DNA of 31,404 bases from a virus. Positions within the stretch are counted from its first letter, which is position 1; every line of letters starts with the position of its first letter. Location: positions 1 through 31,404 of the IMG/VR virus record IMGVR_UViG_3300049845_000024. One strand, 5' to 3'. The notes under the pieces are model-generated. The model did not search any database. It was not told the origin of the DNA and saw only the letters and a list, made by a program, of their open reading frames with translations. The position numbers and the translations under genes were made by a program. Shown piece by piece: positions 16 through 31,404 of this stretch.

Positions 16-3000
16 TTATGGAGTATAATTTTGTGCTACTGTTCCATACCAATTTCTTCCATCGGCAAAGAATGAAAAAATATCTATTCTAGATGCGGAA
101 ATTGATAGGGTTGGTGATGTATTATTTGGCCATTTAACATTTACGAAGTTGCCTGATAAGTTAGTAGTTCCTGTGCTTAGTAATAGAACAAAAGAGGTTC
201 CCGGTGTTTTTGCTGGCATGTTAAATGCACAGTTTGATGTTAGGGTTATTGTTTGGAATGTTCCGTTAGCAAGTGATAATGTTATCGAAGATCCATAGAA
301 TCCTAATGTTACTGGTGTTTCTCTATATTCTTCAACAACTAATTCTGTTGAAGTTAGACTTCCAACTTTCAACCCACCACCACTATCGCTCTTAAGAACA
401 CTTAGAGGAGATACAGTAGCATCAGATGTTGCGCCATTAACTAAGAAGTAAGTGGTGTCCCAATTTGCAGAAGATGCACGAACCTTTGAAGATGCTTGAA
501 CATCATCCTGCCATGTAGTAGAGAGATTTGTTACAGTATTGTAAGTGCTTACCCATGTTCCAGAAAGATTAGTAACAGTATTGTAATTAGACTCCCACTT
601 AGCACTAAGATTGGTAAGTGTATTGTAGGTAGAATCCCAAACAGCACTACTTGCACGAATCTTGGCAGATGCATATGTATCATCCTGCCATGTGGAGCTT
701 AAGTTGAAAACTGTAAGATTTGTAGAATCCCAAGCACCACTTCTGGTATTAACAGTGTTGTAAGCACTATTCCAGTTAGTGGAAAGATTAGTGACAGTGT
801 TGTAATTAGACTCCCATTTGTCACTTAGGTTGAAAACCGTAAGGTTGGTAGAATCCCATGCACCACTTCTAGTATTAACTGTGCTGTATGCACTCTGCCA
901 ATTACCTGAAAGATTAGTAACAGTGTTATAGTTCGATTCCCACTTGTTACTTAAATTGTAAACCGTAAGATTGGTTGAATCCCAAGCACCACTTCTAGTG
1001 TTGACAGTGTTATAAGCACTCTGCCAGTTGCTGCTGAAGCTGTTTACTGTATTATTAGTAGAATCCCATGCCGACATTCTAGCATAGGTATTTTCCCACC
1101 CATTGCTCAAATTGTATACAGTAAGATTTGTAGAATCCCATGCACCACTTCTAGTGTTAGTTGTGTTATAAGCACTATTCCAATTACTACTCAGTGTATT
1201 GACAGTATTATATGCACTCTCCCAATTACTTGAAAGCGATCCTAAATATGCGAGATCGTCAAGAAGAGCAAATGTTCCATCTTTATCAGGAAGTTGATAA
1301 CCTCTCTTACCTGTTAAGAGATTGTTAGTCTTAATATTACCCGTAAACCCGCTAGAATCTCGCGCACCTATTGTTAATATTTGACCTACCACAGTATCGC
1401 CAGCGGTATAAATCCCTGTTACTGATAATAGACCAGATCCCGTTGTTGATTTTAGTAATGTATTTGCATATGTGACACCATCCGTTGTTGCGCTTAAGAC
1501 TTGACTATATGCGGTGTTCCAATTAGAACTAAAGCTGTTTACTGTATTATTAGTAGCATCCCATGCAGACATTCTAGCATAAGCAGTATCCCAATTAGCA
1601 CTACTTGCGCGAACTTTGGTAGATACTGCTGTATCATCCCCATTATCTACTGCCCAAGAAGTACTAAGGGCATTGACAGTAGAGTAGACAGTATTCCAAT
1701 TTGCAGAAACATTAAATACCGTATTATATGTAGATTGCCAATTAGATGACAGGGATCTTACACCTATCAAATTATCAGAAATATCCCCAAGTACTGCAAT
1801 AGACCCATCCCTTACAGGCCAATAAACATTCACATCAGATAATAATCCACTCGCATGAACAGTAACTTGGTATGGAGATCCACCATCTTTATGCCAAAGT
1901 GGATAGTCAATAAATGTACCATTATTTCCAATGGTTAAATAACCCAAAGTTATTCCACTAGAACTATCAGATTTGATGAGACTGTTTGGTTGGGATATCG
2001 CATTTGGTGTAGCATTAATGGCACTAAGATAAGCACTATCCCATAGTGCAGACATATATCTAACTTTAGCAGATGCTTGAGTATCATCCGTGTTGTTCCA
2101 CGTTGTACTAAGAGCGTTAACAGTAGAATATGTTGTATTCCAATTTGCAGAAACATTTGTTACGGTATTGTAATTTGATTCCCATTTTCCACTAAAACTG
2201 TTAACAGTGTTGTTAGTAGTATCATATGCAGACATTCTTGCATAGGTATTATCCCAATTTGCACTACTTGCTCTAACCTTTAATGACGCTTGAGTATCGT
2301 CCGTATTATCTACTGCCCAAGAAGTGCTAAGAGCATTTACTGTAGAGTATACAGTATTCCAATTTGCGGAAACATTCGTTACAGTGTTATAAACACTCAC
2401 CCATGTTCCAGAAAGATTAGTGGTTGTATTATAATTTGATTCCCATTTGTCACTTAAGTTATATACAGTAAGATTAGTAGCATTCCATGCAGACATTCTA
2501 GCATAGGTGTTATCCCAATTGGCTGATGATGCTCTAACCTTAGCAGAAACCTGTGTATCATCATCGATATTAAACCATTGGCTAGAAATGTTAGTAACAG
2601 TGTTATAGGTAGCATCCCAATTTGCAGAAGATGAACGAACCTTAGACGAAGCCTGTGTGTCGTCCGCATTATCTACTGCCCAAGAAGTACTAAGGGCATT
2701 GACAGTAGAGTAGACAGTATTCCAATTTGCAGATACATTTGTGACCGTATTGTAGTTTGATTCCCACTTATCACTAAGACTATTAACAGTATTGTTAGTA
2801 GAATCCCATGCGGACATTCTAGCATAGGTGTTATCCCAATTAGCACTACTTGCGCGAACTTTAGACGAAACTTGTGTGTCATCATCTATGTTAAACCACT
2901 GACTAGAAATGTTAGTAACGGTGTTATAAGTTGAATCCCATTTACTTGAAAGACTATACAGAGAATTATTAGTGGAATCCCATGCAGACATTCTAGCATA

Positions 3001-3684
3001 AGTATTATCCCAATTTGCGCTACTTGCTCTAACCTTTAGGGACACTTGGGTATCGTCTCCATTGTCTACTGCCCATGATGTACTAAGAGCATTAACAGTA
3101 GAATAAACTGTCTGCCAGTTGGCAGAAATATTTGTTACAGTGTTATAATTTGATTCCCACTTATCACTTAAACTATACACTGAGTTGTTAGTAGAATCCC
3201 ATGCGGACATTCTACTGTATGTGGTATCCCAATTAGCACTACTTGCTCTTAATTTTGTAGAAGCTCCTACATCATCATCTATGTTAAACCACTGACTAGA
3301 AACGTTAGTAACAGTGTTATATGTAGAGTCCCAGAAGGCACTAGATGCTCTCAACTTGGTAGAGGCTTCCACATCATCCTGTGAGTCTACTCCCCATGCA
3401 GCACTATTATTAAGAACTGTGGTGTAAGTGCTATCCCAAAATGCACTACTTGATCTTAACTTAGTTGATGCTTGAGTATCATCACCCCCTCCGACAATTC
3501 CCAAATAATTTGCCGCACTTAAATTTCCATAAACAATTAGATTATTTAAAACATCGACAGAACTTACAGTAATAGACCTTGTAGCAGACAGATCAACAGT
3601 CAATGTTAATAATCCACTATCATTGATGTTCTGTTGTGCTGCCCCATCAGCTAGGTAATTACTTGTTACTTTCGTTTTAGACAT
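16..3684 (-). CDS. Giant repetitive tail fibre / virion adhesin (1222 aa)
   Basis: Probable structural fibre. After a short N-terminal beta region ending in YLGIVGG (around residues 58-64), most of the protein is a Trp-rich repeat in which W recurs every 14 residues, pattern W-x-S-x-Y-x-T-V-x-x-x-S-x-x-W, with more than fifty copies. Three non-repeat cassettes interrupt or end the array; each opens with a motif like LLKSDSGGGL, and the first two contain a DGTFALL-type strand seen in phage tail fibres. The C-terminus (about residues 1085-1222) is a beta-rich domain ending in DGRNWYGTVAQ, as in other phage fibre tips. Spacing W(0)-Y(4)-V(7)-S(11) fits the core positions of a coiled coil with two heptads per repeat; that is inference. 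The ATG overlaps the stop of the 1632-aa gene by one base (TAATG), so the two are probably translationally coupled. The stop lies near the window edge, and another gene may start at base 9. Fibre role likely; receptor unknown. Confidence 0.75.
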   Translation of the reverse strand: MSKTKVTSNYLADGAAQQNINDSGLLTLTVDLSATRSITVSSVDVLNNLIVYGNLSAANYLGIVGGGDDTQASTKLRSSSAFWDSTYTTVLNNSAAWGVDSQDDVEASTKLRASSAFWDSTYNTVTNVSSQWFNIDDDVGASTKLRASSANWDTTYSRMSAWDSTNNSVYSLSDKWESNYNTVTNISANWQTVYSTVNALSTSWAVDNGDDTQVSLKVRASSANWDNTYARMSAWDSTNNSLYSLSSKWDSTYNTVTNISSQWFNIDDDTQVSSKVRASSANWDNTYARMSAWDSTNNTVNSLSDKWESNYNTVTNVSANWNTVYSTVNALSTSWAVDNADDTQASSKVRSSSANWDATYNTVTNISSQWFNIDDDTQVSAKVRASSANWDNTYARMSAWNATNLTVYNLSDKWESNYNTTTNLSGTWVSVYNTVTNVSANWNTVYSTVNALSTSWAVDNTDDTQASLKVRASSANWDNTYARMSAYDTTNNTVNSFSGKWESNYNTVTNVSANWNTTYSTVNALSTTWNNTDDTQASAKVRYMSALWDSAYLSAINATPNAISQPNSLIKSDSSSGITLGYLTIGNNGTFIDYPLWHKDGGSPYQVTVHASGLLSDVNVYWPVRDGSIAVLGDISDNLIGVRSLSSNWQSTYNTVFNVSANWNTVYSTVNALSTSWAVDNGDDTAVSTKVRASSANWDTAYARMSAWDATNNTVNSFSSNWNTAYSQVLSATTDGVTYANTLLKSTTGSGLLSVTGIYTAGDTVVGQILTIGARDSSGFTGNIKTNNLLTGKRGYQLPDKDGTFALLDDLAYLGSLSSNWESAYNTVNTLSSNWNSAYNTTNTRSGAWDSTNLTVYNLSNGWENTYARMSAWDSTNNTVNSFSSNWQSAYNTVNTRSGAWDSTNLTVYNLSNKWESNYNTVTNLSGNWQSAYSTVNTRSGAWDSTNLTVFNLSDKWESNYNTVTNLSTNWNSAYNTVNTRSGAWDSTNLTVFNLSSTWQDDTYASAKIRASSAVWDSTYNTLTNLSAKWESNYNTVTNLSGTWVSTYNTVTNLSTTWQDDVQASSKVRASSANWDTTYFLVNGATSDATVSPLSVLKSDSGGGLKVGSLTSTELVVEEYRETPVTLGFYGSSITLSLANGTFQTITLTSNCAFNMPAKTPGTSFVLLLSTGTTNLSGNFVNVKWPNNTSPTLSISASRIDIFSFFADGRNWYGTVAQNYTP
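440..3460 (-). repeat. Trp-repeat arrays, 42-base period (1222-aa fibre)
   Basis: In-frame tandem repeats encoding W-x-S-x-Y-x-T-V-x-x-x-S, 14 residues (42 bases) per unit, in three blocks at about 440-1240, 1500-1750 and 2040-3460, separated by the two beta cassettes. Units differ slightly, and higher-order groups recur, for example the RASSANWD / ARMSAWDST / KWESNYNTV series. Boundaries are approximate. Confidence 0.85.
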
Positions 3685-14075: not shown

Positions 14076-14372
14076 ATGAGTTTGACAACCAACGCAGGAA
14101 CACAGTACTACGGAATATCTTGTAATGTTCCGTCGGCCTCTGGTATTAATATTAATAGCAATGCTGGTACTAGGTATTATTACCTATCGACAAATGACTA
14201 TATTTTATGGGGGCAGGAAAATGCCATGTCACACCCAACAACCAACATATCAACACAGTATCGTTTCTTACAATGTGATGTTTTAAGCGAATCAGGTCTT
14301 AATTTGACAACCAACGCAGGAACGAAGTATTACTATAATTCGGCGTTTAACTGTGTAAGTTTTTGTGATTAA
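14076..14372 (+). CDS. Small plus-strand protein with four internal repeats (98 aa)
   Basis: I do not recognise this protein. It is the only plus-strand gene inside the minus-strand structural block, filling a hole between the neck-like and portal genes. It contains four degenerate repeats of about 24 residues with a core like TTNAGTQYY, NSNAGTRYY, TTNISTQYR and TTNAGTKYY, each followed by a segment often containing Cys (Cys residues near positions 16, 67, 93 and 97). A perfect 21-base direct repeat encodes the first and last cores. The alternating polar/aromatic pattern suggests beta strands. In-frame preservation of the repeats argues that it is translated. Its stop abuts the portal stop with no gap, so the two transcripts converge. 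A TAAATA box lies 15 bases upstream. It may be a late-acquired (moron-like) gene or a small decoration protein. Confidence 0.55.
   Translation: MSLTTNAGTQYYGISCNVPSASGININSNAGTRYYYLSTNDYILWGQENAMSHPTTNISTQYRFLQCDVLSESGLNLTTNAGTKYYYNSAFNCVSFCD
14081..14323 (+). repeat. Perfect 21-base direct repeat inside the 98-aa gene
   Basis: Identical copies at 14081-14101 and 14303-14323 (starting tttgacaacc, ending gcaggaac), both in the same frame and encoding LTTNAGT. Exact identity over 21 bases suggests recent duplication or recombination within the gene. Confidence 0.85.
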
Positions 14373-21253: not shown

Positions 21254-21682
21254 TTAACTATTCTTAGGTTTACAAATTCCAAACATTCTTTGTTCGTTTA
21301 AGAAAATTCCTTTATTAACTTTGCCATGATTTTCAACCTCAACATTAGTGATTTGAATACCCATATTAGAGGGGAACATTACAATATCTCCAACCTGTGT
21401 AAACCGAACATTTGGTCCCTTAAGAATGACCCTACCCTTTCTCCACATGTTATTAACCTGTGCGGTAGGGATGAAAATTGCCCCTCTTTGAACGAAATCC
21501 TGACCATCCACACTTGCCGCTAGGTCACAGAATTCAAGCAACATCACATCATCCATTAGGCTTGATAGTAGGTAATCCTCTAATCCGAAATCGGTAGGTA
21601 GTCCACCACTAGATAGGTCGATGTGGGATTTTTGAACTGGAAGGGCTTCAATTGGAACTTTTGGTTGTTCTACAGTATTCAT
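21254..21682 (-). CDS. GroES / gp31-like co-chaperonin (142 aa)
   Basis: Resembles GroES-fold co-chaperonins of T4-like phages such as gp31, which cap the host GroEL chamber so that the large capsid protein can fold. Evidence: after about 45 variable residues, a strand LLEFCDLAA, a disordered-looking loop region, RGAIFIPTA (GroES has a GGI-P equivalent), MWRKGRVILKGPNV followed by VGDIVMFP, and a terminal strand FLNEQRMFGIC equivalent to the GroES end. The length is a little above T4 gp31. TAAATA is 6 bases before the ATG, followed by GGG, the nearest thing to a Shine-Dalgarno sequence among these starts. It lies 5 bases after the sulfotransferase gene. Some marine phages carry this protein in the virion instead, an alternative I cannot exclude. 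Confidence 0.55.
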   Translation of the reverse strand: MNTVEQPKVPIEALPVQKSHIDLSSGGLPTDFGLEDYLLSSLMDDVMLLEFCDLAASVDGQDFVQRGAIFIPTAQVNNMWRKGRVILKGPNVRFTQVGDIVMFPSNMGIQITNVEVENHGKVNKGIFLNEQRMFGICKPKNS

Positions 21683-21687
21683 ATACC

Positions 21688-22299
21688 CTATTTACTATCA
21701 GTCATCGAATATGTCAATACTGCCTTATTACTATCTTCTTTGACAGCATTATACAATTCAAAATCTTCCTTATACATACATTTCAGATATTCTATACTTC
21801 TTTCACTATATTCAAATGGGACTCTTGGGGAAGCATTGATTTTTGGAATTTTAATATTTAAGCCTGTCTCTTCATTGAGTTTTTCGATTTCCTGTTCTAA
21901 ATCATCAAACAATAAAAACTTGTATGGTTTATATACCCATAATATTTGTTTAGCAAATACCCAATCAGTATGAACAGGCTTACCATTTATACTATGATAG
22001 TGATCCTGTATCTTCATGTAGGATAATGCTCTAGCATCAAATTCCAGTAGTGATTGAATTAGTTGTTCTGGGTTATTGAGATGGTCGCGCATCTTATTCT
22101 TCTCATATCTTTTTAAATAGAAAAACGCAGATGTGAATCTATCTACAGGATTCCTAACAACATATATATTCTTCGTCTTATCAAGCCACCAAAACTGAAC
22201 ACCATGTCCACGGTAAATTATATTTGGTTTACCAGCCAACGCTTTTTGAAATGACATTCCAGCATTTTTAGGAATGTGTATAAACGAATATTCAACCAT
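21688..22299 (-). CDS. Sulfotransferase-family protein (203 aa)
   Basis: Transfers sulfate from PAPS to a hydroxyl, most likely on a sugar given its neighbours. The 5'-phosphosulfate loop is IHIPKNAGMSF (residues 7-17) and the 3'-phosphate site is VVRNPVDRFTSAFFYL (47-62), both in the form seen in carbohydrate sulfotransferases. There is no signal peptide or transmembrane segment, so it would act in the cytoplasm. The ATG at 22299 overlaps the previous stop by 8 bases (ATGGTTGA); a TTG at 22311 would add four residues but is less convincing. It is the last gene of the glycan block. The acceptor is unknown; a sugar made by the block is the natural candidate. Confidence 0.8.
   Translation of the reverse strand: MVEYSFIHIPKNAGMSFQKALAGKPNIIYRGHGVQFWWLDKTKNIYVVRNPVDRFTSAFFYLKRYEKNKMRDHLNNPEQLIQSLLEFDARALSYMKIQDHYHSINGKPVHTDWVFAKQILWVYKPYKFLLFDDLEQEIEKLNEETGLNIKIPKINASPRVPFEYSERSIEYLKCMYKEDFELYNAVKEDSNKAVLTYSMTDSK
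21689..21694 (-). promoter_or_regulatory. TAAATA box 6 bases before co-chaperonin-like ATG
   Basis: Minus strand GTAAATA-GGGTAT-ATG, overlapping the end of the sulfotransferase gene. Confidence 0.45.
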
Positions 22300-22636
22300 T
22301 GTAGTATTCAAACAATTCCAATTCTCTTCTGGAGTAAAATTCAGGAACTATGAGAGATTCCTTCTTTTCGTCTTCTCTATTCCTCTTTATGTAATTAACA
22401 TGTTTCTTCTTCTGAATTGGAATCATGTATTCATAAAATCGAAATTGATCTTCTTTACATTTATGAATGTTATCATACATGTTTATCGTATCGTTAATAT
22501 ACGACACCAATTTTCCTTTTTCATAAAAGGATAACATCTTTCTCGCCATCCAAGGACTGAATTCCGATAGAAGTTCTCCATCCAATTCCTTCCTTCTTTC
22601 CTCAAACATTAGATAATTTGTGGCATTGAAACTCAT
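22292..22636 (-). CDS. Small protein resembling clamp-loader subunit gp62 (114 aa)
   Basis: Helical, basic protein. The segment SPWMARKMLSFYEKGKLVSY, then INMYDNIHKCKEDQFRFYEY and IPIQKKKHVNYIKR, has the order of conserved positions I recall for small gp62 clamp-loader subunits of T4-like phages (short helix ending LS, Asn-containing helix, aromatic helix, then a proline and a basic K/R-rich W/Y-K end). It would pair with gp44 to load the sliding clamp, but gp44 and gp45 are not in this window, and the setting inside a glycan block is odd. It overlaps GT11 by 4 bases (ATGA) and the sulfotransferase by 8 bases. If the gp62 idea is wrong it is simply a hypothetical protein. Confidence 0.4.
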   Translation of the reverse strand: MSFNATNYLMFEERRKELDGELLSEFSPWMARKMLSFYEKGKLVSYINDTINMYDNIHKCKEDQFRFYEYMIPIQKKKHVNYIKRNREDEKKESLIVPEFYSRRELELFEYYNG

Positions 22637-23373
22637 ATTTTTATCATTCCATCGTAATATATATCAGAGCAATCCCTATCATGTAGCCATTTACTAGGAA
22701 CATAAACTTTCTTCTTTGGAACTCCAAGTAATGAAGCCCACCAAGAAAATGATGAATTACTACAAACCAGTATCTCATGTTGAGCCAATGCTGTCAAGTC
22801 TTTTAATTCAGAATTCGAACTAAAGATATTAAACTCTCCCTCATTCAAAAATCTATTAACATATTCTGGAGAATCAGTAAAAACATTAATATTATGATCC
22901 TTATATTCTCTGAATAATTTTCTAAAGTATTCTTCGTTATTACCGAAGATTGTAGGGAATCTTGAATAATCCCCCATTCTAATATGAAATGCAACGGATT
23001 TATTTGTGATAAATATTGTGTTGATCTTAGGAAGAACCAGTTTACTGACGAACTCGTCTTTATAATCCTGAAAGTATTTTAGAGACTGAAAATATCCATT
23101 CAATACCACATCTCCATCATAATAGGGTAGTTCGTTATAATTGAATTCCTTTTCGTCTATGCTATGAACATTCTGCAAAGGTCCATTATGAAATTCGAAA
23201 TTTTGTAATAGATTATCTGCATAGTTGTTAGGTTGTTTACCTTGCGATGCAGTCCATTCAGTGACATTGATGAATAATTCCTTTTCATACTTTTTCGAAT
23301 ATGCATATCCCGCAGCTATTTGAAATAACTGATTTCCAATCCCTCCACATACATTAACATAACATTTACTCAT
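22633..23373 (-). CDS. GT11-family glycosyltransferase, alpha-1,2-fucosyltransferase-like (246 aa)
   Basis: Transfers a sugar, typically L-fucose from GDP-fucose in an alpha-1,2 linkage. Family hallmarks are all present: GGIGNQLFQ (residues 10-18), the donor-binding HIRMGDY (130-136, usually HIRRGDY), and the C-terminal NSSFSWWAS (206-214). The length is slightly short for GT11, with no membrane segment. An exact late-type box TATAAATA lies 17 bases before the ATG, inside the preceding gene, so this gene may also be expressed late on its own. It overlaps the FkbM gene by 8 bases and the gp62-like gene by 4. The Arg-to-Met change in HIRRGDY is unusual and may alter donor choice. Confidence 0.85.
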   Translation of the reverse strand: MSKCYVNVCGGIGNQLFQIAAGYAYSKKYEKELFINVTEWTASQGKQPNNYADNLLQNFEFHNGPLQNVHSIDEKEFNYNELPYYDGDVVLNGYFQSLKYFQDYKDEFVSKLVLPKINTIFITNKSVAFHIRMGDYSRFPTIFGNNEEYFRKLFREYKDHNINVFTDSPEYVNRFLNEGEFNIFSSNSELKDLTALAQHEILVCSNSSFSWWASLLGVPKKKVYVPSKWLHDRDCSDIYYDGMIKI

Positions 23374-24589
23374 TCACTACCTCGATTTTGTATTTATATC
23401 CTACATTAACAATACCAGTTCCAGAGTAATGTGCAACATCAGAAACTTCCCATTTTTCATATGGAAGACCATTCCACCATTCATTCATGGCTTTTGGATT
23501 TGCCCCCGGAATAGCACAAGGCCAATTATCAAGAACATCATCAAGAATAAGAATTCCCTTCCAACCCACATCCTCCAGAAAGGTCATAAATTCTCTTTCC
23601 TTGATACCATCGTGAGGGTCAACATCAATCATGATAATATCGACATTCTTCCAATCAATACCATGCTCCATGAAGTTACCTATAACGAATTCGATATTGT
23701 CTTTTTTAATTGTTGGTTTCCAGTCAAAAATATCAAAGGTTGTAACTTTATTGCTATCATTATATGCCAATGCTAATGCGGAATCCCCGTGTCTGGTTCC
23801 AACTTCAACAATATGCCCATTATTGATTAATGTGCTGATATACGCATAAAATTTATACGCTTCAACACCTGCTTTAGCATTGAGTGCTTCGTCCGATCCT
23901 CCAAATTGCTTCAGGGGACTCAAATCAATATTAGCAACATCCTTTTTGTTTATTCTCACAGTCTTAATTTCACTGTTTAGATTTTTTCTAACATAAAGTG
24001 CATCTCCCCAACCACATCCAGTATCTTCTTCCAACACCTTTTCAAATCCCTTTTCAGCCAAGAATGCTGTTATTTCGCTAATGTGTGGGCAACCCTTATA
24101 CATCTCCTTATAATTAACTTCAGTAAACACCGCTTCAATATAATCCCAATTAGTCAGACCCTTCATTGCCTTCAATTCTGCACCCTGAATATCTAAATTT
24201 AGAATATTCAAACTCGGAATAAATACATTAATTTTCTTTAAAATGGTATCGAGAGTGACCGTTTTCATTTTAACAGAATCAACATTTTTGATGTGGGGAT
24301 ATATTTGAGCATGTTCTCCCAATTCTAAAATAGAAGAACTCTCAGAATTGTTAGTAATATGAAACTCTACCTCCTCTACTTTATCAGAAACTGCTGCATG
24401 AACAATTATACAACTTTCATCATCAATATTACAATTGTAAGCTAATTCTTTATTAGCTTCGATGAATATAATATTATTAACACAAGCCTTTTTATAGATC
24501 GGGTATTCCTCTGCTTTATGCATTCCCACATGGATTACACCAAATGGGGTTATTCCATATTCTCTAACTTTTTCAAATTGTATCAGCAT
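23366..24589 (-). CDS. Fused double methyltransferase: FkbM domain plus second class I domain (407 aa)
   Basis: Two SAM-dependent methyltransferases in one chain. Residues 1-205 are FkbM-like: VIHVGMHKAEEYPIY (18-32), FIEAN after strand 2, VTLDTIL (111-117) and LNLDIQGAELKAMKGL (130-145). Residues 225-400 are a separate class I domain with SAM loop VEVGTRHGDSALAL (261-274), TFDIFDW (284-290), and IIMIDVDPHDGIKEREF (318-334), resembling methyltransferases that act on sugars in surface polysaccharide clusters. Both glycine/acidic motifs look intact, so two methyl transfers are possible. It overlaps SDR by 17 bases. The likely substrate is the glycan made by the adjacent transferases; the positions methylated are unknown. 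Confidence 0.8.
   Translation of the reverse strand: MLIQFEKVREYGITPFGVIHVGMHKAEEYPIYKKACVNNIIFIEANKELAYNCNIDDESCIIVHAAVSDKVEEVEFHITNNSESSSILELGEHAQIYPHIKNVDSVKMKTVTLDTILKKINVFIPSLNILNLDIQGAELKAMKGLTNWDYIEAVFTEVNYKEMYKGCPHISEITAFLAEKGFEKVLEEDTGCGWGDALYVRKNLNSEIKTVRINKKDVANIDLSPLKQFGGSDEALNAKAGVEAYKFYAYISTLINNGHIVEVGTRHGDSALALAYNDSNKVTTFDIFDWKPTIKKDNIEFVIGNFMEHGIDWKNVDIIMIDVDPHDGIKEREFMTFLEDVGWKGILILDDVLDNWPCAIPGANPKAMNEWWNGLPYEKWEVSDVAHYSGTGIVNVGYKYKIEVVNE
23391..23398 (-). promoter_or_regulatory. T4-type late promoter box TATAAATA
   Basis: Exact TATAAATA on the minus strand inside the end of the FkbM gene, 17 bases before the GT11 ATG at 23373. It may be a chance match, since it is within coding DNA, but its distance from the start is the same as at 8599-8606. 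Confidence 0.4.
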
Positions 24590-25394
24590 ATATTTTTTCT
24601 ATACCCTCTCTCAAGGATGTTTTTGGTTTCCAGAAATTAAGAATGTAAGGATCTGGCTCATTCATGGCATTTTTCTGCGTCTCATCTTTTCTATTCGCAG
24701 GAACCACTTCACAACCACTAATATCCTTTAAAATATTAGCAACATCGAGAATGGAACTCCATTCAAAACTTGTAATATGATAATTCTTAGTTTTATCAAG
24801 TTTATCATATAATTCAGTTAATGTCAAGAAGCATTCGGCACAATCTCTAGCATATAGAAGTTGGCGAGATTCTGTTCCATCGGTTCTCATGTTGATAACA
24901 CCATCATGTTTCGCCATTCTACAAAAGTCTGTAATAACATGGGCTTTATCTTCTTCATGTTCCATACCATAAACATTCCATAAACGAACAACAAGCCCTC
25001 CAATATCATTCGTAAGTTTTTCTCCAATCGACTTAAGTTGTCCATATGTGGAATAACCCAATTCAGACATTTGTGAAGATGTGAACAAGAAGGGCTTCTT
25101 AGTCTCTTTTAATGCAGTAAAAACATTAATCATTATTTTCATGTTTTCATCAATAAAAGGGAATGTGTCTTGATGTTTTTCTAGGTATTTTGCTCCTCCC
25201 ACATTCGATGCAAAGTAGTAAACAAAATCACATTCATTCATGTAATTATAAAGGGGATATTTACATTGCCAAGAAAGATCTTGATATGGAGTAATTTTCT
25301 TATCATAACGAATTACTTCATGTCCCATTTCTTCCAAATACTTACAAGTTGGATGCCCAATCTGCCCCTCTGATCCTAATACTAATATTTTCAT
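24573..25394 (-). CDS. NAD(P)-dependent nucleotide-sugar epimerase/reductase, extended SDR (273 aa)
   Basis: Extended short-chain dehydrogenase/reductase: cofactor loop GSEGQIG (residues 7-13), FASNVGGAKYL (61-71), SSQ (106-108) and the catalytic Tyr117-x3-Lys121 pair (YGQLK). The NVGG stretch is like that of GDP-L-fucose synthase and related epimerases, and two fucosyltransferase-like enzymes lie nearby, so supply of GDP-fucose or a similar donor is a sensible inference, not proof. It is about 40 residues shorter than typical family members, mainly at the C-terminus. No GDP-mannose 4,6-dehydratase is present here, so the host or another part of the genome would have to supply the precursor. 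It overlaps its neighbours by 4 and 17 bases. Confidence 0.75.
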   Translation of the reverse strand: MKILVLGSEGQIGHPTCKYLEEMGHEVIRYDKKITPYQDLSWQCKYPLYNYMNECDFVYYFASNVGGAKYLEKHQDTFPFIDENMKIMINVFTALKETKKPFLFTSSQMSELGYSTYGQLKSIGEKLTNDIGGLVVRLWNVYGMEHEEDKAHVITDFCRMAKHDGVINMRTDGTESRQLLYARDCAECFLTLTELYDKLDKTKNYHITSFEWSSILDVANILKDISGCEVVPANRKDETQKNAMNEPDPYILNFWKPKTSLREGIEKIYADTI

Positions 25395-27100
25395 TGATTA
25401 TAAATTTCTATTGTGTTGTTATTAATTACACGACTTGGGTATTTTGTAAATCCCCACCCTTCCCTATTATTATACCCTTCTCTAGAGTATCCACCACTTT
25501 TGGCCTGTCTAAGATGAAAAACATGATAGTATTCAAGATCCACAAGAACCATCTTTGATCCATTTTTGACTAATTGCCACAGAATTTCCCCATCCATAGA
25601 TGCTTGTCCAATCGGATTTCTATGTTCAGTATTCACTTCATCATATCCTTTGGCAATTTCAACGAATACCTTACGAGGGAATAGTGTAGCATCTCCTGAA
25701 TAACCACCACAAATCACCCCATCAATATCATCAGGAGAATGTAGGTCCAATCTTTCACTAAAATTAGCACCATCTTTGTAATTTTGTCTATATCTAAACC
25801 TATAAAAGTTGTTTTCATCTTGTTTATCAGAGATGGTTTTAATATAGTCCGCTATCTCTTTAGAAATAAAGATATCAGCATTGGTCATGAAGAGAAATTT
25901 ACCTTTAGATTTTAATGCTGCAATATTTTTAGCATAATATTCATGAAATGCTCGATCTGGAAGGCCATCGTCAACTAATACGGATCTATCAACAATGATG
26001 TTTTTGACTCTTTTATGTGATAGAAGTCTCTTCATCCTGCTATTATTGATGAGTAGTTTGCCATCAATTGGGTTATAATCCACCACAATAATCTCATATG
26101 AAAGACCCGAACTATCTAAAACATCTAAATTTTTAGATAAAGCTATTTCAAAACGGTTAATGAAGTCTCCACCATAACCATCATCCCTTCCTGAGAGAAT
26201 GAAACTAACATCCACTTCTCTATGAGATTCTAAAATTTCTGATATTGAATCATCAACATTACGATCTTCTATGAGAGATTCTAAAATTCTTGATATATAA
26301 TCATCCGTGTGGAGGAATTCTTTACATCTAAAAAAGTTCTCTTTAGCCCCCTTCAAATATTCCTTATATGGTTTCAGGTTCTTAAGAACATATTCCAACT
26401 CTTCCAAATTAGAGAATGTTTCCATTCCGCGAAGATCAAATATATCACCAACATTAGGACATCCCCACAAAATAGGAATTGTCCCCAATCTCATAGGATC
26501 GATGAGAATTTCAGTGAAATAATTATCAATTCTACCATTTAGAACACAAATACTGAATTGATAGTCGATCAATGGCTCTTTTTTGTGTCCAAAAGGCTTT
26601 CCAAGCCCATAACCCCACCCATCGACCCCGTATTTTCGTGCTACATTATACACATCATCACGGAATCTATGACCTTCACTCATCTTTTTACCTGACGAAA
26701 TCATCGAAATGTGCTTAGTTTTTTCGTAAAAATTAGCCAAATCGTCTTCGATTCTACTCTGTCCAACGAAATATTTGATGTATTTTGGTGATCTTTTTAA
26801 TAAATTTGACTCAAAAGTTAAAATATAATCAAATTTATCCTCAACCTTTATAATATCCTCATACAACCAAGGATGAATTGCGGGTGGTTCCATTAACCAA
26901 GCCACCTTTAACTTACTTTTAACCTGATCTACTATGGGATCATTAATAAATCCATCAGTAAAAACAGTAATTCCATCATATTCCATCAATCTATCCAACC
27001 ATTCAATATTTTTTGGGGGATAGAGATAGGTTGATGTGTAGACACCGATCATGTCTTTCACATGTCGGAAATTATTATCGAACAAATTAACCTTTATCAT
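25391..27100 (-). CDS. Bifunctional glycosyltransferase: GT10-like fused to GT-A domain (569 aa)
   Basis: Two transferases in one polypeptide. Residues 1-285 are GT10-like (alpha-1,3-fucosyltransferase type), with the C-terminal donor region YQFSICVLNGRIDNYFTE (180-197) and PILWGCPNVGDIFD (209-222). Residues 296-550 are a GT-A domain: VSFILSGRDDGYGG at its start, TNADIF (406-411) as the DxD-like metal site, and ASMDGEILWQLVKNG with a later YYHVFH. Each could add a different residue to the same chain. The ATG overlaps the upstream gene by 14 bases. A GGAGGAG sequence lies 13 bases before the ATG, but it is inside the coding region of the upstream gene and rather far away. Donors and linkages are unknown. 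Confidence 0.8.
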   Translation of the reverse strand: MIKVNLFDNNFRHVKDMIGVYTSTYLYPPKNIEWLDRLMEYDGITVFTDGFINDPIVDQVKSKLKVAWLMEPPAIHPWLYEDIIKVEDKFDYILTFESNLLKRSPKYIKYFVGQSRIEDDLANFYEKTKHISMISSGKKMSEGHRFRDDVYNVARKYGVDGWGYGLGKPFGHKKEPLIDYQFSICVLNGRIDNYFTEILIDPMRLGTIPILWGCPNVGDIFDLRGMETFSNLEELEYVLKNLKPYKEYLKGAKENFFRCKEFLHTDDYISRILESLIEDRNVDDSISEILESHREVDVSFILSGRDDGYGGDFINRFEIALSKNLDVLDSSGLSYEIIVVDYNPIDGKLLINNSRMKRLLSHKRVKNIIVDRSVLVDDGLPDRAFHEYYAKNIAALKSKGKFLFMTNADIFISKEIADYIKTISDKQDENNFYRFRYRQNYKDGANFSERLDLHSPDDIDGVICGGYSGDATLFPRKVFVEIAKGYDEVNTEHRNPIGQASMDGEILWQLVKNGSKMVLVDLEYYHVFHLRQAKSGGYSREGYNNREGWGFTKYPSRVINNNTIEIYNQ

Positions 27101-27818
27101 GCCAAGATTTAATCTCCTCCTTTAAAATTTCAACAGGGACTCGACAAATATGATTGTAAATTCCCATATTATAGTTGAGATGTGGACTCTTTTCCACGGA
27201 AGTTTCCGATCTATAGTGGTCTAAATGTAATATTGGACTTGAAGTTCTACCCATTTTGTATCCCAAACGATAGAATCTCATTTGAATTTCGTTATCATCA
27301 AACCCAACATTCTTAAAGTTTGGATTGCACATACCACCTTCGATGAATACGCTCTTTTTGAAGATGACACAACCCCCATAAGAGTTTGGATTACATAATT
27401 CACACTTAGCTAAATCTATTTTTCTCTCATTTAAAAATCCATCGATGAGTGGTTTAGGGATATTATAGAATTCTCCATTATATGGATAGACGAAATCGAA
27501 TCCATTACTCAACATATCTATACTCTGTTTCAGATCTTTAGGCAAAACAATAACATCAACATCATAAACAGCCAGATTATCATGAGAACAATCCTTAACC
27601 ATTTCATTAACACATCTCATCTTGTTGAAATTGTCTTCGGTAAGTTCCACACTTGAATACGAACAATTTGATCCGTCATATTTGGGAGAATCTTTATAGT
27701 ATTCTCTAACATGTATTGATTCAACACCGTATTCTCTCAGTGTCTTAATAACATTTTTCAGATTCGTTATTCGATCTTCGTGATCGACATATAGTGGTAT
27801 TAGTATATCAATATTCAT
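27087..27818 (-). CDS. GT-A glycosyltransferase with galactosyltransferase-like C-terminal domain (243 aa)
   Basis: Glycosyltransferase of GT-A fold: N-terminal strand MNIDILIPLYVDHEDR, a DVD metal site in YDVDVIVLP (around residues 85-93), and GGCVIFKKSVFIEGG followed by FDDNEIQMRFYRLGYKM, which is the acceptor-side pattern of the galactosyltransferase C-terminal family (GT7-like). An H-x-DHYRSE motif follows (LHLDHYRSE), also expected. There is no signal peptide or membrane anchor. It overlaps the next GT2 gene by 4 bases (ATGA). The donor cannot be deduced; galactose or N-acetyl sugars are the usual donors in this group. Confidence 0.75.
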   Translation of the reverse strand: MNIDILIPLYVDHEDRITNLKNVIKTLREYGVESIHVREYYKDSPKYDGSNCSYSSVELTEDNFNKMRCVNEMVKDCSHDNLAVYDVDVIVLPKDLKQSIDMLSNGFDFVYPYNGEFYNIPKPLIDGFLNERKIDLAKCELCNPNSYGGCVIFKKSVFIEGGMCNPNFKNVGFDDNEIQMRFYRLGYKMGRTSSPILHLDHYRSETSVEKSPHLNYNMGIYNHICRVPVEILKEEIKSWHDKG

Positions 27819-28561
27819 TTAAAAATTCCCTTTATATCTATGGGTTCTAGAATCTTAACATCTTCATCATACTGCGCTTTAACACGCAAACTCAGTTCGT
27901 ATAATCCCCTGTGAGGATGTGTCCCCCCAAAATCAATATCAGTATCTTCTTGATTTGGATTAAATTTCTGTCCTCTCCAAGACATTCCACCATAATGTAT
28001 AAATGTTTTTCCTTCAACGGAAATATCTGCTATGGAATAACCAATTTTTGTAACATCTTCAAACATGGTTGAACCAATATCGTAGATTCTATCGACATTA
28101 TAAATATGTCTCAACATATGTCTGTCTCTATCAAAGAATTTGATCTTATGATTCTTGAGTTTCTGGTTATCAATAAAGCAGAACCAAGGCTCAACTCTGG
28201 GATATAATTTCTTACCAGCACAATCTCCCACAACTTTACCCATCAATGCAAATTCATTCATCGACTTAAATTTTTCAAACATCTTCTTAATGTCTTTGAG
28301 AAAGATAATATCGCTATCAACAAGTAAAACATATCTAGTCTTAACCTTACTAAGACCAAGATTCACTGCTTCTCCATGAATACCATTTCTAAAATTAAAA
28401 TATGGTATTTCATTTTCATCCAATAAATCTGAAGGTGTTTCACTGGAGGTATTCATTACCATAACTTCTGGCAATTCTTCGAATACATTTTTAACTGATT
28501 TTAGAAGATTCACAATCAGTTCAGGGGTGTTATAGTTGCATGTTAAAAGTGTTAAGTCCAT
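27815..28561 (-). CDS. GT2-family glycosyltransferase (248 aa)
   Basis: Typical GT2 start MDLTLLTCNYNTPELIVNLL, then GEAVNLGLSKVKTRYVLLVDSDI with the DSD metal site. The C-terminal part (HYGGMSWRGQKF) holds conserved His and Trp residues that may bind the acceptor. I take the ATG at 28561 because the family starts directly with the beta strand; an ATG at 28582 would add seven residues of unlikely sequence and lengthen the overlap with the methyltransferase gene to 31 bases. A cytoplasmic enzyme adding one sugar to the growing glycan is expected. Linkage unknown. Confidence 0.8.
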   Translation of the reverse strand: MDLTLLTCNYNTPELIVNLLKSVKNVFEELPEVMVMNTSSETPSDLLDENEIPYFNFRNGIHGEAVNLGLSKVKTRYVLLVDSDIIFLKDIKKMFEKFKSMNEFALMGKVVGDCAGKKLYPRVEPWFCFIDNQKLKNHKIKFFDRDRHMLRHIYNVDRIYDIGSTMFEDVTKIGYSIADISVEGKTFIHYGGMSWRGQKFNPNQEDTDIDFGGTHPHRGLYELSLRVKAQYDEDVKILEPIDIKGIFK

Positions 28562-29106
28562 AAAATTCCGATTCCCGCCCATTCTTTATTTGTTATAATT
28601 TCTTTAAATTCTCCACCATTATATTCTTCCTTTAAGTCTCTCCAGAACTCTCCAACATAGCATCCATGTGTATGATGAAAATCTGTGATAATAATATCGT
28701 GAAATGCTACAGGTGTTTTCTTTTTCAGATAAGGCAATACATTATAAAAGTCTGCCTTAACTCCTTCGTATGAATGATCACCATCAATAAAGACAAAATC
28801 CCACTCATGTTCTGCGAAAAGTTTTCCCATTGCTGGGTCATGACTATCACCAGCAACATATTTGTAATTGGGACATGGTAATTTACTTGGATCAAATCGA
28901 CATGGATCATTATTATCGATGGTAATCATGTTCTTAGCAAAGTTGCTGAGATAATAACTCGATCCCCCATCATAACATCCAATCTCAAGAATGTTTAAAT
29001 CCTTTTTATCACCAATAGCATTTTCAATCAACCACTCCCATTCTTCTTGGAGTTGTTGAATTTTATATTGTGACTTTGCTACTTCCCAGATTTTATCCTT
29101 GTCCAT
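28552..29106 (-). CDS. Class I SAM-dependent methyltransferase (184 aa)
   Basis: Methyltransferase of the small Methyltransf_24 / CmcI type. SAM loop ILEIGCYDGGSSYYL, a TIDNND second strand, and FVFIDGDHSYEGVKADF, the acidic metal/active-site segment characteristic of this group, all in the right order and spacing. The length is normal for a single-domain enzyme, with a helical lid at the N-terminus. It most likely O-methylates a sugar in the glycan. It overlaps the upstream GT2 by 14 bases and the downstream GT2 by 10. With the fused enzyme at 23366-24589 the block has three predicted methyltransferase domains. Confidence 0.8.
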   Translation of the reverse strand: MDKDKIWEVAKSQYKIQQLQEEWEWLIENAIGDKKDLNILEIGCYDGGSSYYLSNFAKNMITIDNNDPCRFDPSKLPCPNYKYVAGDSHDPAMGKLFAEHEWDFVFIDGDHSYEGVKADFYNVLPYLKKKTPVAFHDIIITDFHHTHGCYVGEFWRDLKEEYNGGEFKEIITNKEWAGIGILWT

Positions 29107-29938
29107 ATTCCTTTTTGATTCTTTTTAGTTCTTTTGCTGCAACCATAGGGTCAACAAGAGGAATTTGCATAGGTAAACATCCGTGTTTATTAACGAAAAT
29201 TTTATCAGCATCCTTCATCATTTGTTGATGGTTGGGTTTAGATGAGATAGTGGACTTCTCAATAGTCCACGGTTCATCACCAAGTAATGTATGACTAAGT
29301 GCTAAATCTGCAAAATACCAGAATGGAGGATGCATACCAGCCTTAATAACTTCGTAAGTGTGATCCACATGTTCACATGCATTAACATATCTCTCATCAA
29401 TTATTCCAACTTCCTCCAAACACTTTTTAGAATAGTATGAAAACGCACCAACGCAATGTGGATATAATGCAATATCTTTACCTTCACCGTAGTTGATGGT
29501 AATTCTCGGATTTGGATCTTTATTACCATCAAAAGTTTTATTCATTATTCCATGTTGAGAATAATTAAAATGTTGAATGCCTGTCAGTTTTGATGCATTG
29601 ATATATTGGTCAAACACTGACTCAGATTTGATAAAAATATCGTCTTCAATAATAAAGATATGATCGCATCCTTTATTCATCAATGCGCGAAAAGCTTTAT
29701 TCTTTGATCTACCAACGCCAATATTTTCTTCATTAGTGATCCATTCAGTATGTTCTTTCAACCATTTTTCGGTTAAGAACTCTGATGGACTCAAATTTCC
29801 CCCATCATCCACCACTACAATGTGATCTAAAATAAAATCACATGGTAATAATGACTTTAGGAGTTTGGCTAAGAGGAATGGACGCTTGTAAGTAACGATA
29901 CCCACTCCGACAGTTTCAGGATTATTCGTATGTGTCAT
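29093..29938 (-). CDS. GT2-family glycosyltransferase (281 aa)
   Basis: GT-A fold: VGVGIVTYKRPFLLAKLLKSL at the N-terminus, VVVDDGG, then NIGVGRSKNKAFRAL and the metal motif FIIEDDIFI. The later CVGAFSYYSKKCLEEVG and ERYVNACEHVDHTYEVIKAG are also as in GT2 enzymes that modify glycoproteins or polysaccharides. There is no membrane anchor. Its start overlaps the stop of the kinase-like gene by one base (TAATG). As the first glycosyltransferase of the block it could act early in chain building, but gene order alone does not show this. Confidence 0.8.
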   Translation of the reverse strand: MTHTNNPETVGVGIVTYKRPFLLAKLLKSLLPCDFILDHIVVVDDGGNLSPSEFLTEKWLKEHTEWITNEENIGVGRSKNKAFRALMNKGCDHIFIIEDDIFIKSESVFDQYINASKLTGIQHFNYSQHGIMNKTFDGNKDPNPRITINYGEGKDIALYPHCVGAFSYYSKKCLEEVGIIDERYVNACEHVDHTYEVIKAGMHPPFWYFADLALSHTLLGDEPWTIEKSTISSKPNHQQMMKDADKIFVNKHGCLPMQIPLVDPMVAAKELKRIKKEYGQG

Positions 29939-30708
29939 TATTTTCTACCCTTTTTAGATTTTTTACCATCATTGGCGTATGGATTTTTAAATTCTTGAAC
30001 TATTTTATCAATTCTTTCCTCATTTTCAAGTTCATGTTCGTGTTCCTTGAGCATTTTTTCGAACATTTCCATGTTACTTGGGTCAAGAACACTATCACCC
30101 TCGATAAGATCACCCCTATAGTCGATAAATTCACCAATAAACATAAGTTTATCATCAACACTTGGAAAGCTTTCATCAATACAGACGATTGCAGGACAAT
30201 CTTCCTTTGGATAGAACACATCACTCTCTAGATTGTCCATGTATTGTTTAAATAATCCATCAAAGACTGAATCTACCTCCGCAATATACTGTTCATCAGT
30301 ATCTCTAAGATCATCCTTTATAATTTTGATGTGGGGATTTCTTTTTAGCCAGAAAATTATATCAAGATCCTTCATGGATTCTTTTACAAAGGATATGGTG
30401 GCTGCTGCAATCTCGTCCGTGACTAATCCCTTACTGTTGGCATGGAGAGTATATGCTAGATTATCCCACGGACACCTATCATAAATAATTTTAGATCCTT
30501 TGGGGTATTTGGCTTGCTCTTCCATCATCCAGTTCAGAATATGAAGCTGAGTTTCATCACTTGTTTTACTGGAATGATTCAACCCGTTTTCTTTAATAAC
30601 ATCTCTGTAAGTCTTAATAGGAGTGGTATACATATTCCACTTATTAAGAAATGCTTTCAATAAAGTCGTCTTTCCCGTATTTGCGGTCCCTGAAATTGCT
30701 ATCCTCAT
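29938..30708 (-). CDS. P-loop nucleotide/nucleoside kinase-like NTPase (256 aa)
   Basis: P-loop protein of the AAA_28 / NadR-kinase or thymidylate-kinase-like type. Walker A GTANTGKT (residues 7-14), and IIYDRCPWDNLAYT (74-87) with the DR pair found in nucleoside and nucleotide kinases. The C-terminal 60 residues are strongly charged: acidic first, then a Lys-rich end (KKSKKGRK) likely to be disordered. The substrate is unknown: a nucleoside, nucleotide or NAD precursor are all possible. It is the first gene of the glycan block and is read away from PhoH; the intergenic inverted repeat lies 27 to 42 bases upstream of its ATG. No Shine-Dalgarno sequence or TAAATA box is visible. Confidence 0.65.
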   Translation of the reverse strand: MRIAISGTANTGKTTLLKAFLNKWNMYTTPIKTYRDVIKENGLNHSSKTSDETQLHILNWMMEEQAKYPKGSKIIYDRCPWDNLAYTLHANSKGLVTDEIAAATISFVKESMKDLDIIFWLKRNPHIKIIKDDLRDTDEQYIAEVDSVFDGLFKQYMDNLESDVFYPKEDCPAIVCIDESFPSVDDKLMFIGEFIDYRGDLIEGDSVLDPSNMEMFEKMLKEHEHELENEERIDKIVQEFKNPYANDGKKSKKGRK

Positions 30709-30769: not shown

Positions 30770-31404
30770 ATGTCAACTAAAAAAGCACCTCGCAAGAGGA
30801 AGGAAGTCGATATCACTAACGAAATGTCTGAACACATGAAGAAGAATTTCGACTGTGAACACTTGGTTCTCAAAAACCGTTTTCAATTAACATCAAACCA
30901 AACAAAGTTTTACTACTTAACACAGAATCCTAATACTAATATGGTATTTGTTGACGGGGTTGCGGGAACAGCAAAGACATATGTTGCAGTATATGGAGCC
31001 TTGGAGTTGCTAAAGGACAGACATGTTGACCAAATCATCTACATTAGAACAGTGGTTGAGAGTTCTTCCAAGTCAATTGGTGCATTGCCGGGAGAGTTGG
31101 ATGATAAATTTTCCCCATATTCCATGCCATTGATGGATAAATTGGGGGAAATTCTATCTCTTAATGATTCAAGATGTTTAATTGATAATCATTATATTAA
31201 AGCAATACCTGTAAACTTCACTAGAGGTTTAACATTTAATAACTCTGCGGTCATTCTAGATGAAACACAGAATATGACTAAGAGTGAAATTACAACGATT
31301 CTTACCAGATTTGGTAGAAGATCTAAGTATTTTGTCTGTGGTGATACTAATCAAACAGACATTAAAGACTCAGGATTTAAGGAAGTATTTAAAGCATTTA
31401 ATAC
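30770..31404 (+). CDS. phoH: PhoH-like P-loop ATPase, 3' end cut by window edge
   Basis: Translating from the ATG at 30770 gives 211 residues with no stop before the edge. Walker A is GVAGTAKT (residues 63-70), Walker B VILDETQNMT (161-170), and FGRRSKYFVCGDTNQTD (181-197) is the PhoH/helicase-like C-terminal pattern. A basic N-terminal tail (KKAPRKRK) precedes the domain. PhoH proteins are frequent in marine phages and bind ATP; their role in infection is unsettled, although some are phosphate-regulated in bacteria. TAAATA is 6 bases before the ATG, and there is no Shine-Dalgarno sequence. It is divergent from the glycan block. Confidence 0.9.
   Translation, partial: MSTKKAPRKRKEVDITNEMSEHMKKNFDCEHLVLKNRFQLTSNQTKFYYLTQNPNTNMVFVDGVAGTAKTYVAVYGALELLKDRHVDQIIYIRTVVESSSKSIGALPGELDDKFSPYSMPLMDKLGEILSLNDSRCLIDNHYIKAIPVNFTRGLTFNNSAVILDETQNMTKSEITTILTRFGRRSKYFVCGDTNQTDIKDSGFKEVFKAFN

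Follow-up and report, generated by a model that had tools for sequence, protein, structure and literature searches.

The window analysed here is the whole 31,404-nucleotide stretch of IMG/VR virus record IMGVR_UViG_3300049845_000024, and the element under study is a run of 11 open reading frames (ORFs) on its minus strand, which extends without gaps from position 30708 to position 21688 with overlaps of 1-31 nt between neighbours. The initial annotation had read this run as an eleven-gene overlapping glycan block. The eleven overlapping ORFs are indeed present; the glycan genes among them number nine, because a gp62-like ORF and a nucleoside-kinase-like ORF drop out of the set. The nine are contiguous and same-stranded across 21688-29938, interrupted solely by the gp62-like ORF, and according to Pfam and PHROGs they carry together six glycosyltransferase (GT) and three methyltransferase domains. 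The notion of a dense phage glycan pathway is supported, and each gene family originally named is present: a sulfotransferase, a GT11, a weakly matched GT10 fused to a GT-A domain, a GT7-like enzyme (also a weak match), two GT2 enzymes (here GT2a and GT2b), a nucleotide-sugar short-chain dehydrogenase/reductase (SDR) and the three methyltransferase domains (FkbM, a second domain fused to it, and Methyltransf_24). Since the same 11.3 kb recur at 99.99% identity in 2 other IMG/VR contigs, the fused two-domain ORFs are unlikely to be assembly artefacts.

Comparison with relatives reveals the region as a swappable cassette, with conserved edges and exchanged genes between them. About 25 related contigs of uncultured T4-like phages, found via their portal and helicase proteins, were examined. 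In most of them, one edge of the slot consists of PhoH (usually on the opposite strand), the kinase and, immediately downstream of the kinase gene, GT2a, while gp62, GroES, two small ORFs and a helicase form the other. The PhoH-like gene is present in 16 of 18 slot loci; in a survey of 80 gp62 loci, GroES lies downstream of gp62 in all 64 that have 3 kb of sequence there, and 42 of 57 have GT11 upstream of gp62, at a distance of no more than 2.5 kb. Between these edges, the gene content changes without regard to how similar the phage cores are. Counted at 40% identity or above over the nine glycan families in 18 related loci, seven families are shared with locus L098 (portal 74% identical), four with L094 (83%) and a single one with L096 (81%), GT2a and GT11 being retained in most relatives. 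When 136 variable slot proteins are tallied by Pfam family, glycan enzymes predominate (GT2, 28; Epimerase, 8; FkbM, 8; GT7C, 7; GT17, 5; GT11, 5; UDP-galactopyranose mutase, 3). Sulfotransferases recur at the slot, including a second family (Sulfotransfer_3), and a C-methyltransferase is also found. Loci L100 and L109 hold, amid the glycan genes of the slot, a long fibre that is a homologue of the 1253-aa ORF of the window (33-38% identity); in L100, genes for head closure, maturation protease and major head protein come after it, still inside the slot. As to the search of related phages for the same gene set and its link to the fibre genes, proposed at the outset, the contents are swapped between relatives, and a fibre resides inside the slot in L100 and L109 only.

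Several smaller features of the slots may be recorded here. Homing endonucleases are interspersed with the fibre and head genes in the L100 slot. In L093, L097 and L103, an opposite-strand GT2 stands beside a small Sulfotransfer_3-type protein, between GroES/gp62 and a 190-aa ORF, in the manner of a mobile pair. Two adjacent ORFs inside the glycan cassette of L096 (2624-3807) resemble the halves of an E1/transketolase-type enzyme dependent on thiamine diphosphate, and a transketolase-like gene also occurs in the glycan cluster of cyanophage S-SM2.

The glycosyltransferases of the window (all glycan ORFs are on the minus strand) retain acidic metal-binding-type motifs. No other glycosyltransferase of the island is as constant as GT2a (29093..29938; PF00535, E 1.4e-5; IEDD motif), a candidate for the first transferase. 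PF00535 is matched by 11 of 13 of its homologues; its match to a TET-associated GT (TAGT) profile is weak (E 0.005) and below cut-off, and is seen in 3 of the 13. GT2b (27815..28582; PF00535, 7.4e-11) has a DSD motif, and the GT7-like enzyme (27087..27818) a DVD motif; the latter matches PF02709 (GT7C) below cut-off (0.0041), phrog_15655 at 1.6e-29 and phrog_1721, a galactosyl transferase. The adjoining ORF (25391..27100) joins a GT10-type domain (residues ~1-285) to a GT-A domain (~290-569). Its PF00852 (GT10) match of 9.7e-5 falls just below the curated Pfam cut-off; further support comes from phmmer, which relates the domain to the Helicobacter pylori fucosyltransferase FucT (5zoi, 2.8e-6), and from related GT10-like genes of cyanophages and megaphages. 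The GT-A part was modelled with modest confidence (predicted local distance difference test score, pLDDT, 68), and its GT-A fold resembles that of GT2-type enzymes (E ~1e-8). Both parts are encoded by separate neighbouring ORFs in L095, and the GT-A part is missing in L098.

The proposal of a fucosylated product has become less certain. Families that point to fucose are present: GT10, and GT11 (22633..23373; PF01531, 6.6e-11; phrog_2644, 1.2e-25), the alpha-1,2-fucosyltransferase family. Their donor motifs, however, are changed. The GT10 motif ends in TEI in the window, L095 and L098, with the remainder of the motif present, whereas a motif alignment shows TEK kept in more distant homologues, including those of S-SM2, S-SRM01 and a 735-kb megaphage; in GT11, the first motif is HIRM as compared to HIRR or HVRR in most relatives, and the second, SNSSFSWW, is intact. 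No gene for GDP-fucose synthesis was found in the window. Because of these motif changes and the missing donor pathway, fucose in the product is to be treated as a reasonable guess rather than a result. The SDR (24573..25394; PF01370, NAD-dependent epimerase, 4.1e-22) keeps the GxxGxIG and YxxxK motifs and is of the 4-reductase/epimerase type. Its assignment as GDP-fucose synthase was rejected, the model score being 40.6 bits against a cut-off of 500.

Methylation and possible sulfation of the glycan are plausible. The FkbM domain (PF05050, 7.5e-18) and the second methyltransferase domain (PF13578, 0.0011) share one ORF (23366..24589) in the window; they are separate genes, in reversed order, in L095 and L098. 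The Methyltransf_24 enzyme (28552..29106; PF13578, 1.5e-12) has homologues at 66-71% identity in L098 and L106. The sulfotransferase (21688..22311; phrog_3347) is of the type dependent on 3'-phosphoadenosine 5'-phosphosulfate (PAPS) and matches PF00685 at 2.9e-5, with 24.1 bits against a cut-off of 22. It carries both PAPS-binding motifs, for the 5'-phosphosulfate and the 3'-phosphate (HIPKNAGMS, RNPVDRFTSAF). The ORF is listed with a TTG start, and an in-frame ATG follows 12 bases downstream. Homologues occur in L093, L167, L168 and L169; matches to adenosine 5'-phosphosulfate (APS) kinase in relatives were weak and are left uninterpreted.

Relatives encode sugar pathways of their own. Their slots contain RfbH-like enzymes, UDP-galactopyranose mutase, a dehydratase of PseB/FnlA-like type and reductases that are RmlD-like or Fcl-like. 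Inspection of the PF16363 matches identified those in genomes G004, G009 and G011 as dTDP-glucose dehydratase-like and that in G027 as GDP-mannose 4,6-dehydratase (GMD), with RmlB in G011 and GMD in G027 above the NCBIfam cut-off; all four genes lie elsewhere in the genome. The dTDP-glucose 4,6-dehydratase-like genes at loci L119, L120 and L121 are found away from the island, and their surroundings are alike in G004 and G011 at least. The location of these dehydratase genes suggests a 6-deoxyhexose precursor common to the lineage.

As regards the acceptor, membrane proteins were looked for. The slots of 19 relatives yield 290 proteins with a length of 100 aa or more, and none of these is polytopic, defined as having three or more predicted transmembrane (TM) segments; hence neither a flippase nor a polymerase nor a transporter came to light. 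A polytopic protein was not found in the window's own block either. Applied to the O16 cluster of Escherichia coli K-12, the same script returned 6 TM segments for the polymerase wbbH and 9 for the flippase rfbX. The cassette, therefore, is without the machinery of an exported lipid-linked polymer. Signs of DNA as the acceptor were also sought. The thymidylate synthase/hydroxymethylase family (PF00303) was found in 0 of 14 related records, several of which are fragments, with the control positive in 9 of 14 genomes; Tet_JBP gave 0 of 14, but its control was silent too; and no T4-type DNA glucosyltransferase was matched by Pfam among the scanned window proteins. Candidate acceptors on the virion are provided by the giant ORFs of the window, which the initial annotation had described as Ser/Thr/Asn-rich fibres next to the block. 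Their composition is borne out (29-41% Ser/Thr/Asn compared to 16-21% in five other window proteins), their adjacency is not, since ~9.3 kb of other genes lie in between, and a fibre-annotated homologue could be demonstrated for only one of them. The 1222-aa ORF (16-3684; 41% Ser+Thr+Asn) contains 21 W[DEQN][ST]xYxxV motifs, many of them 14 or ~59 residues apart; its RuBisCO_small Pfam match is probably spurious.

The missing membrane-protein and hydroxymethylase families, the fibre placed inside the slot in L100 and L109, and the Ser/Thr/Asn-rich giant ORFs lead us to lean towards a cytoplasmic acceptor. We propose, with a confidence evenly poised between acceptance and rejection, that the locus is a swappable glycan cassette whose soluble enzymes build a clade-specific glycan on such an acceptor, most likely a virion protein. 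Held between the nucleoside-kinase-like gene and the gp62-GroES-helicase block of a T4-like lineage, the cassette would draw its nucleotide sugars from the host, or in relatives partly from phage-encoded synthesis; GT2a would probably start or extend the chain; GT2b, the GT7-like enzyme, GT10/GT-A and GT11 would lengthen and branch it; the three methyltransferase domains would O-methylate it; and the sulfotransferase may sulfate it. The phage protein that receives the glycan would most likely be one of the large fibres or a head protein, and each phage type would thus come to display a surface glycan of its own. Gene content, fixed slot, cassette turnover and the absence of predicted polytopic membrane proteins are observed; which sugars are donated, in what order the enzymes act, what receives the glycan and what it is for are our inferences. 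A more far-reaching version is tentative and rather less probable: that the slot is a phage 'serotype locus', in which whole cassettes are exchanged at one fixed site and each builds, by means of a soluble cytoplasmic pathway and directly on virion proteins, its own deoxyhexose-rich glycan, O-methylated and sometimes sulfated.

A number of points weigh against the virion as acceptor. Both the glycan and its acceptor are predicted from genes, neither having been observed, and sequence does not decide between virion and host surface. The giant ORFs are distant from the cassette in the window, and low-complexity fibres often occur without glycosylation. Cyanophage clusters described as lipopolysaccharide (LPS) genes are likewise devoid of polytopic proteins, and so their absence here is not decisive; the cassette could borrow membrane machinery from the host. 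The neighbouring genes of replication and nucleotide metabolism would be equally compatible with expression early or midway in infection and with a role at the host surface.

The last points lead directly to the most serious alternative, in which the enzymes act early on a host surface glycan (O-chain, capsule or lipooligosaccharide) and remodel it against superinfecting phages, grazers or re-adsorption, by way of the host's lipid-linked intermediates and export. The location of the slot among replication genes fits such a role, the repertoire of the relatives is O-antigen-like (RfbH-like, PseB/FnlA-like, RmlB, GMD, UDP-galactopyranose mutase), and the authors of the pelagimyophage and cyanophage studies favoured this explanation for their own clusters (PMC7029224, PMC9602691). 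We consider it unlikely, yet worth keeping in view. Flippase, polymerase and any other polytopic protein are absent from the window's block as well as from the 19 related slots, de novo assembly of a chain by many enzymes is a costly route to an altered host surface, and cassettes differ between relatives of high core identity, though tracking of hosts could explain this last observation. Glycosylation of the phage's DNA against restriction, as in T4 or YerA41, appears improbable. Oligosaccharide-like groups do occur on phage DNA, the thymidine of YerA41 bearing a substitution of ~1 kDa (PMC9023294), and the weak TAGT match of GT2a together with the start of the cassette next to a nucleoside-kinase-like gene could be understood in the same sense. 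The searches for PF00303 in the 14 related records and for T4-type glucosyltransferases among the scanned window proteins speak against it; that for Tet_JBP, likewise without a match, had a silent control. FkbM and sulfotransferase enzymes, moreover, are not known from DNA modification. Finally, the block might be largely accessory cargo (morons) collected at a recombination-prone junction, with several of the enzymes inactive or belonging to no common pathway. In relatives, the same junction has received homing endonucleases as well as GT or sulfotransferase genes on the opposite strand; this, and the altered donor motif in both fucosyltransferase-like enzymes, would accord with such an origin. 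The ORFs, however, are long, intact and overlapping and retain key motifs in nearly all cases, GT2a and GT11 persist in most relatives, and three contigs show the two-domain fusions unbroken. We assign the cargo explanation a low probability.

Among known systems, the glycan/LPS clusters of cyanophages S-SRM01, S-SM2 and S-SCSM1 (PMC9602691) are similar to the window in that T4-like phages carry overlapping GT10-like, GT11, FkbM, GT2 and nucleotide-sugar genes without polytopic proteins. They differ in occupying another genome slot and in having homologues of merely ~25-35% identity, and the two regions inspected bear no sulfotransferase annotation, whereas the window has one. S-SRM01 combines in one run a GT10-like transferase, FkbM, two GT11, GT2, GT25, NodZ, GMD and GDP-fucose synthase, and thus holds the GDP-fucose pathway that the window is without. 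The hypervariable island of glycosyltransferases and tail fibres in pelagimyophages is, like the window's slot, GT-rich and set in an otherwise conserved T4-like synteny (PMC7029224); it includes the tail fibres, while the slot from the kinase-like gene to gp62-GroES is apart from them, the L100/L109 group excepted. S-SRM01 and the pelagimyophage island partly answer the original statement that no phage system with this exact combination had been described; the nearest isolate sequences are remote, at ~37% identity or less. New here are the fixed slot beside gp62-GroES, the turnover of whole cassettes and the recurrent sulfotransferases, all in an uncultured lineage. In Megavirinae, which are giant viruses of amoebae, clade-specific clusters serve the glycosylation of capsid fibrils and, like the window, comprise virus-encoded glycosyltransferases, methyltransferases and enzymes for sugars; a sulfotransferase and an APS kinase are added in some of them. 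There the decoration has been shown chemically, whereas in the window it is predicted from genes (PMC10117803). Moraphages, an aquatic lineage with Bacteroidota hosts, have four core GT orthogroups (PMC12619734). The O-antigen loci of the E. coli galF-gnd type resemble the slot in their fixed flanks and exchangeable sugar-specific genes and differ in possessing Wzx-/Wzy-like polytopic proteins. Mycobacteriophage glycosyltransferases are among the nearest isolate matches of GT2a (~27% identity over part of the protein), and no larger cassette shared with these phages was seen. Freeman and colleagues are said to have described in 2023 how mycobacteriophage-encoded glycosyltransferases decorate the capsid and tail tube (as cited in PMC12619734).

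Large phages often carry clusters of glycosyltransferases whose acceptor is usually guessed. The combination of fixed slot, cassette turnover, sugar-specific pathways and missing membrane proteins makes the question of the acceptor testable; the content of a cassette predicts the sugars to be expected, and cassettes can be traced across metagenomes with the slot as their marker. The turnover resembles that of bacterial strains exchanging their surface-sugar genes. If the acceptor is indeed on the virion, phages would vary their surface chemistry by exchanging cassettes, and adsorption, immune recognition and competition between phages would be affected.

The two ORFs of the run that are not glycan genes stand at the edges of the slot. 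The upstream one (29938..30708, minus strand; 256 aa) encodes a P-loop kinase of the deoxynucleoside/thymidylate kinase type, as indicated by PF13521 (AAA_28)/PF01712 (dNK), phrog_2107 (thymidylate kinase, 4.8e-17) and its predicted structure (pLDDT 81), for which deoxynucleoside and thymidylate kinases are the closest folds. Beyond it, on the plus strand, lies the PhoH-like ATPase (30770..31402), recognised by tblastn to annotated PhoH-like proteins, as the constant upstream boundary. The 114-aa ORF at the downstream edge (22292..22636, minus strand) is assigned as a gp62-like clamp-loader small subunit through its homologues in relatives: 5 of 12 hit phrog_225, the DNA polymerase clamp loader, at a best E of 4.7e-7, whereas the sequence in the window has diverged too far to be recognised alone. 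Its constant downstream neighbour is the GroES-like co-chaperonin (21254..21682, minus strand; phrog_3188, 0.0025). The kinase, the gp62-like ORF and the sulfotransferase had no match among 50,697 phage records. Scans aimed at the host returned no portal match across bacterial genomes and only distant or partial matches for the SDR, and promoter and terminator counts equalled those due to chance. Markers of T4-like phages in the window are the portal (27% identical to T4 gp20), the gp15 tail sheath stabiliser, Ad2 and PhoH. Nine minus-strand genes separate the block from the giant ORFs (GroES, two ORFs, helicase, AAA ATPase, gp15, portal, Ad2 and tail assembly chaperone), together with one small plus-strand ORF of 98 aa (14076-14372), which sits between the portal and Ad2 genes, opposite to the surrounding gene direction.

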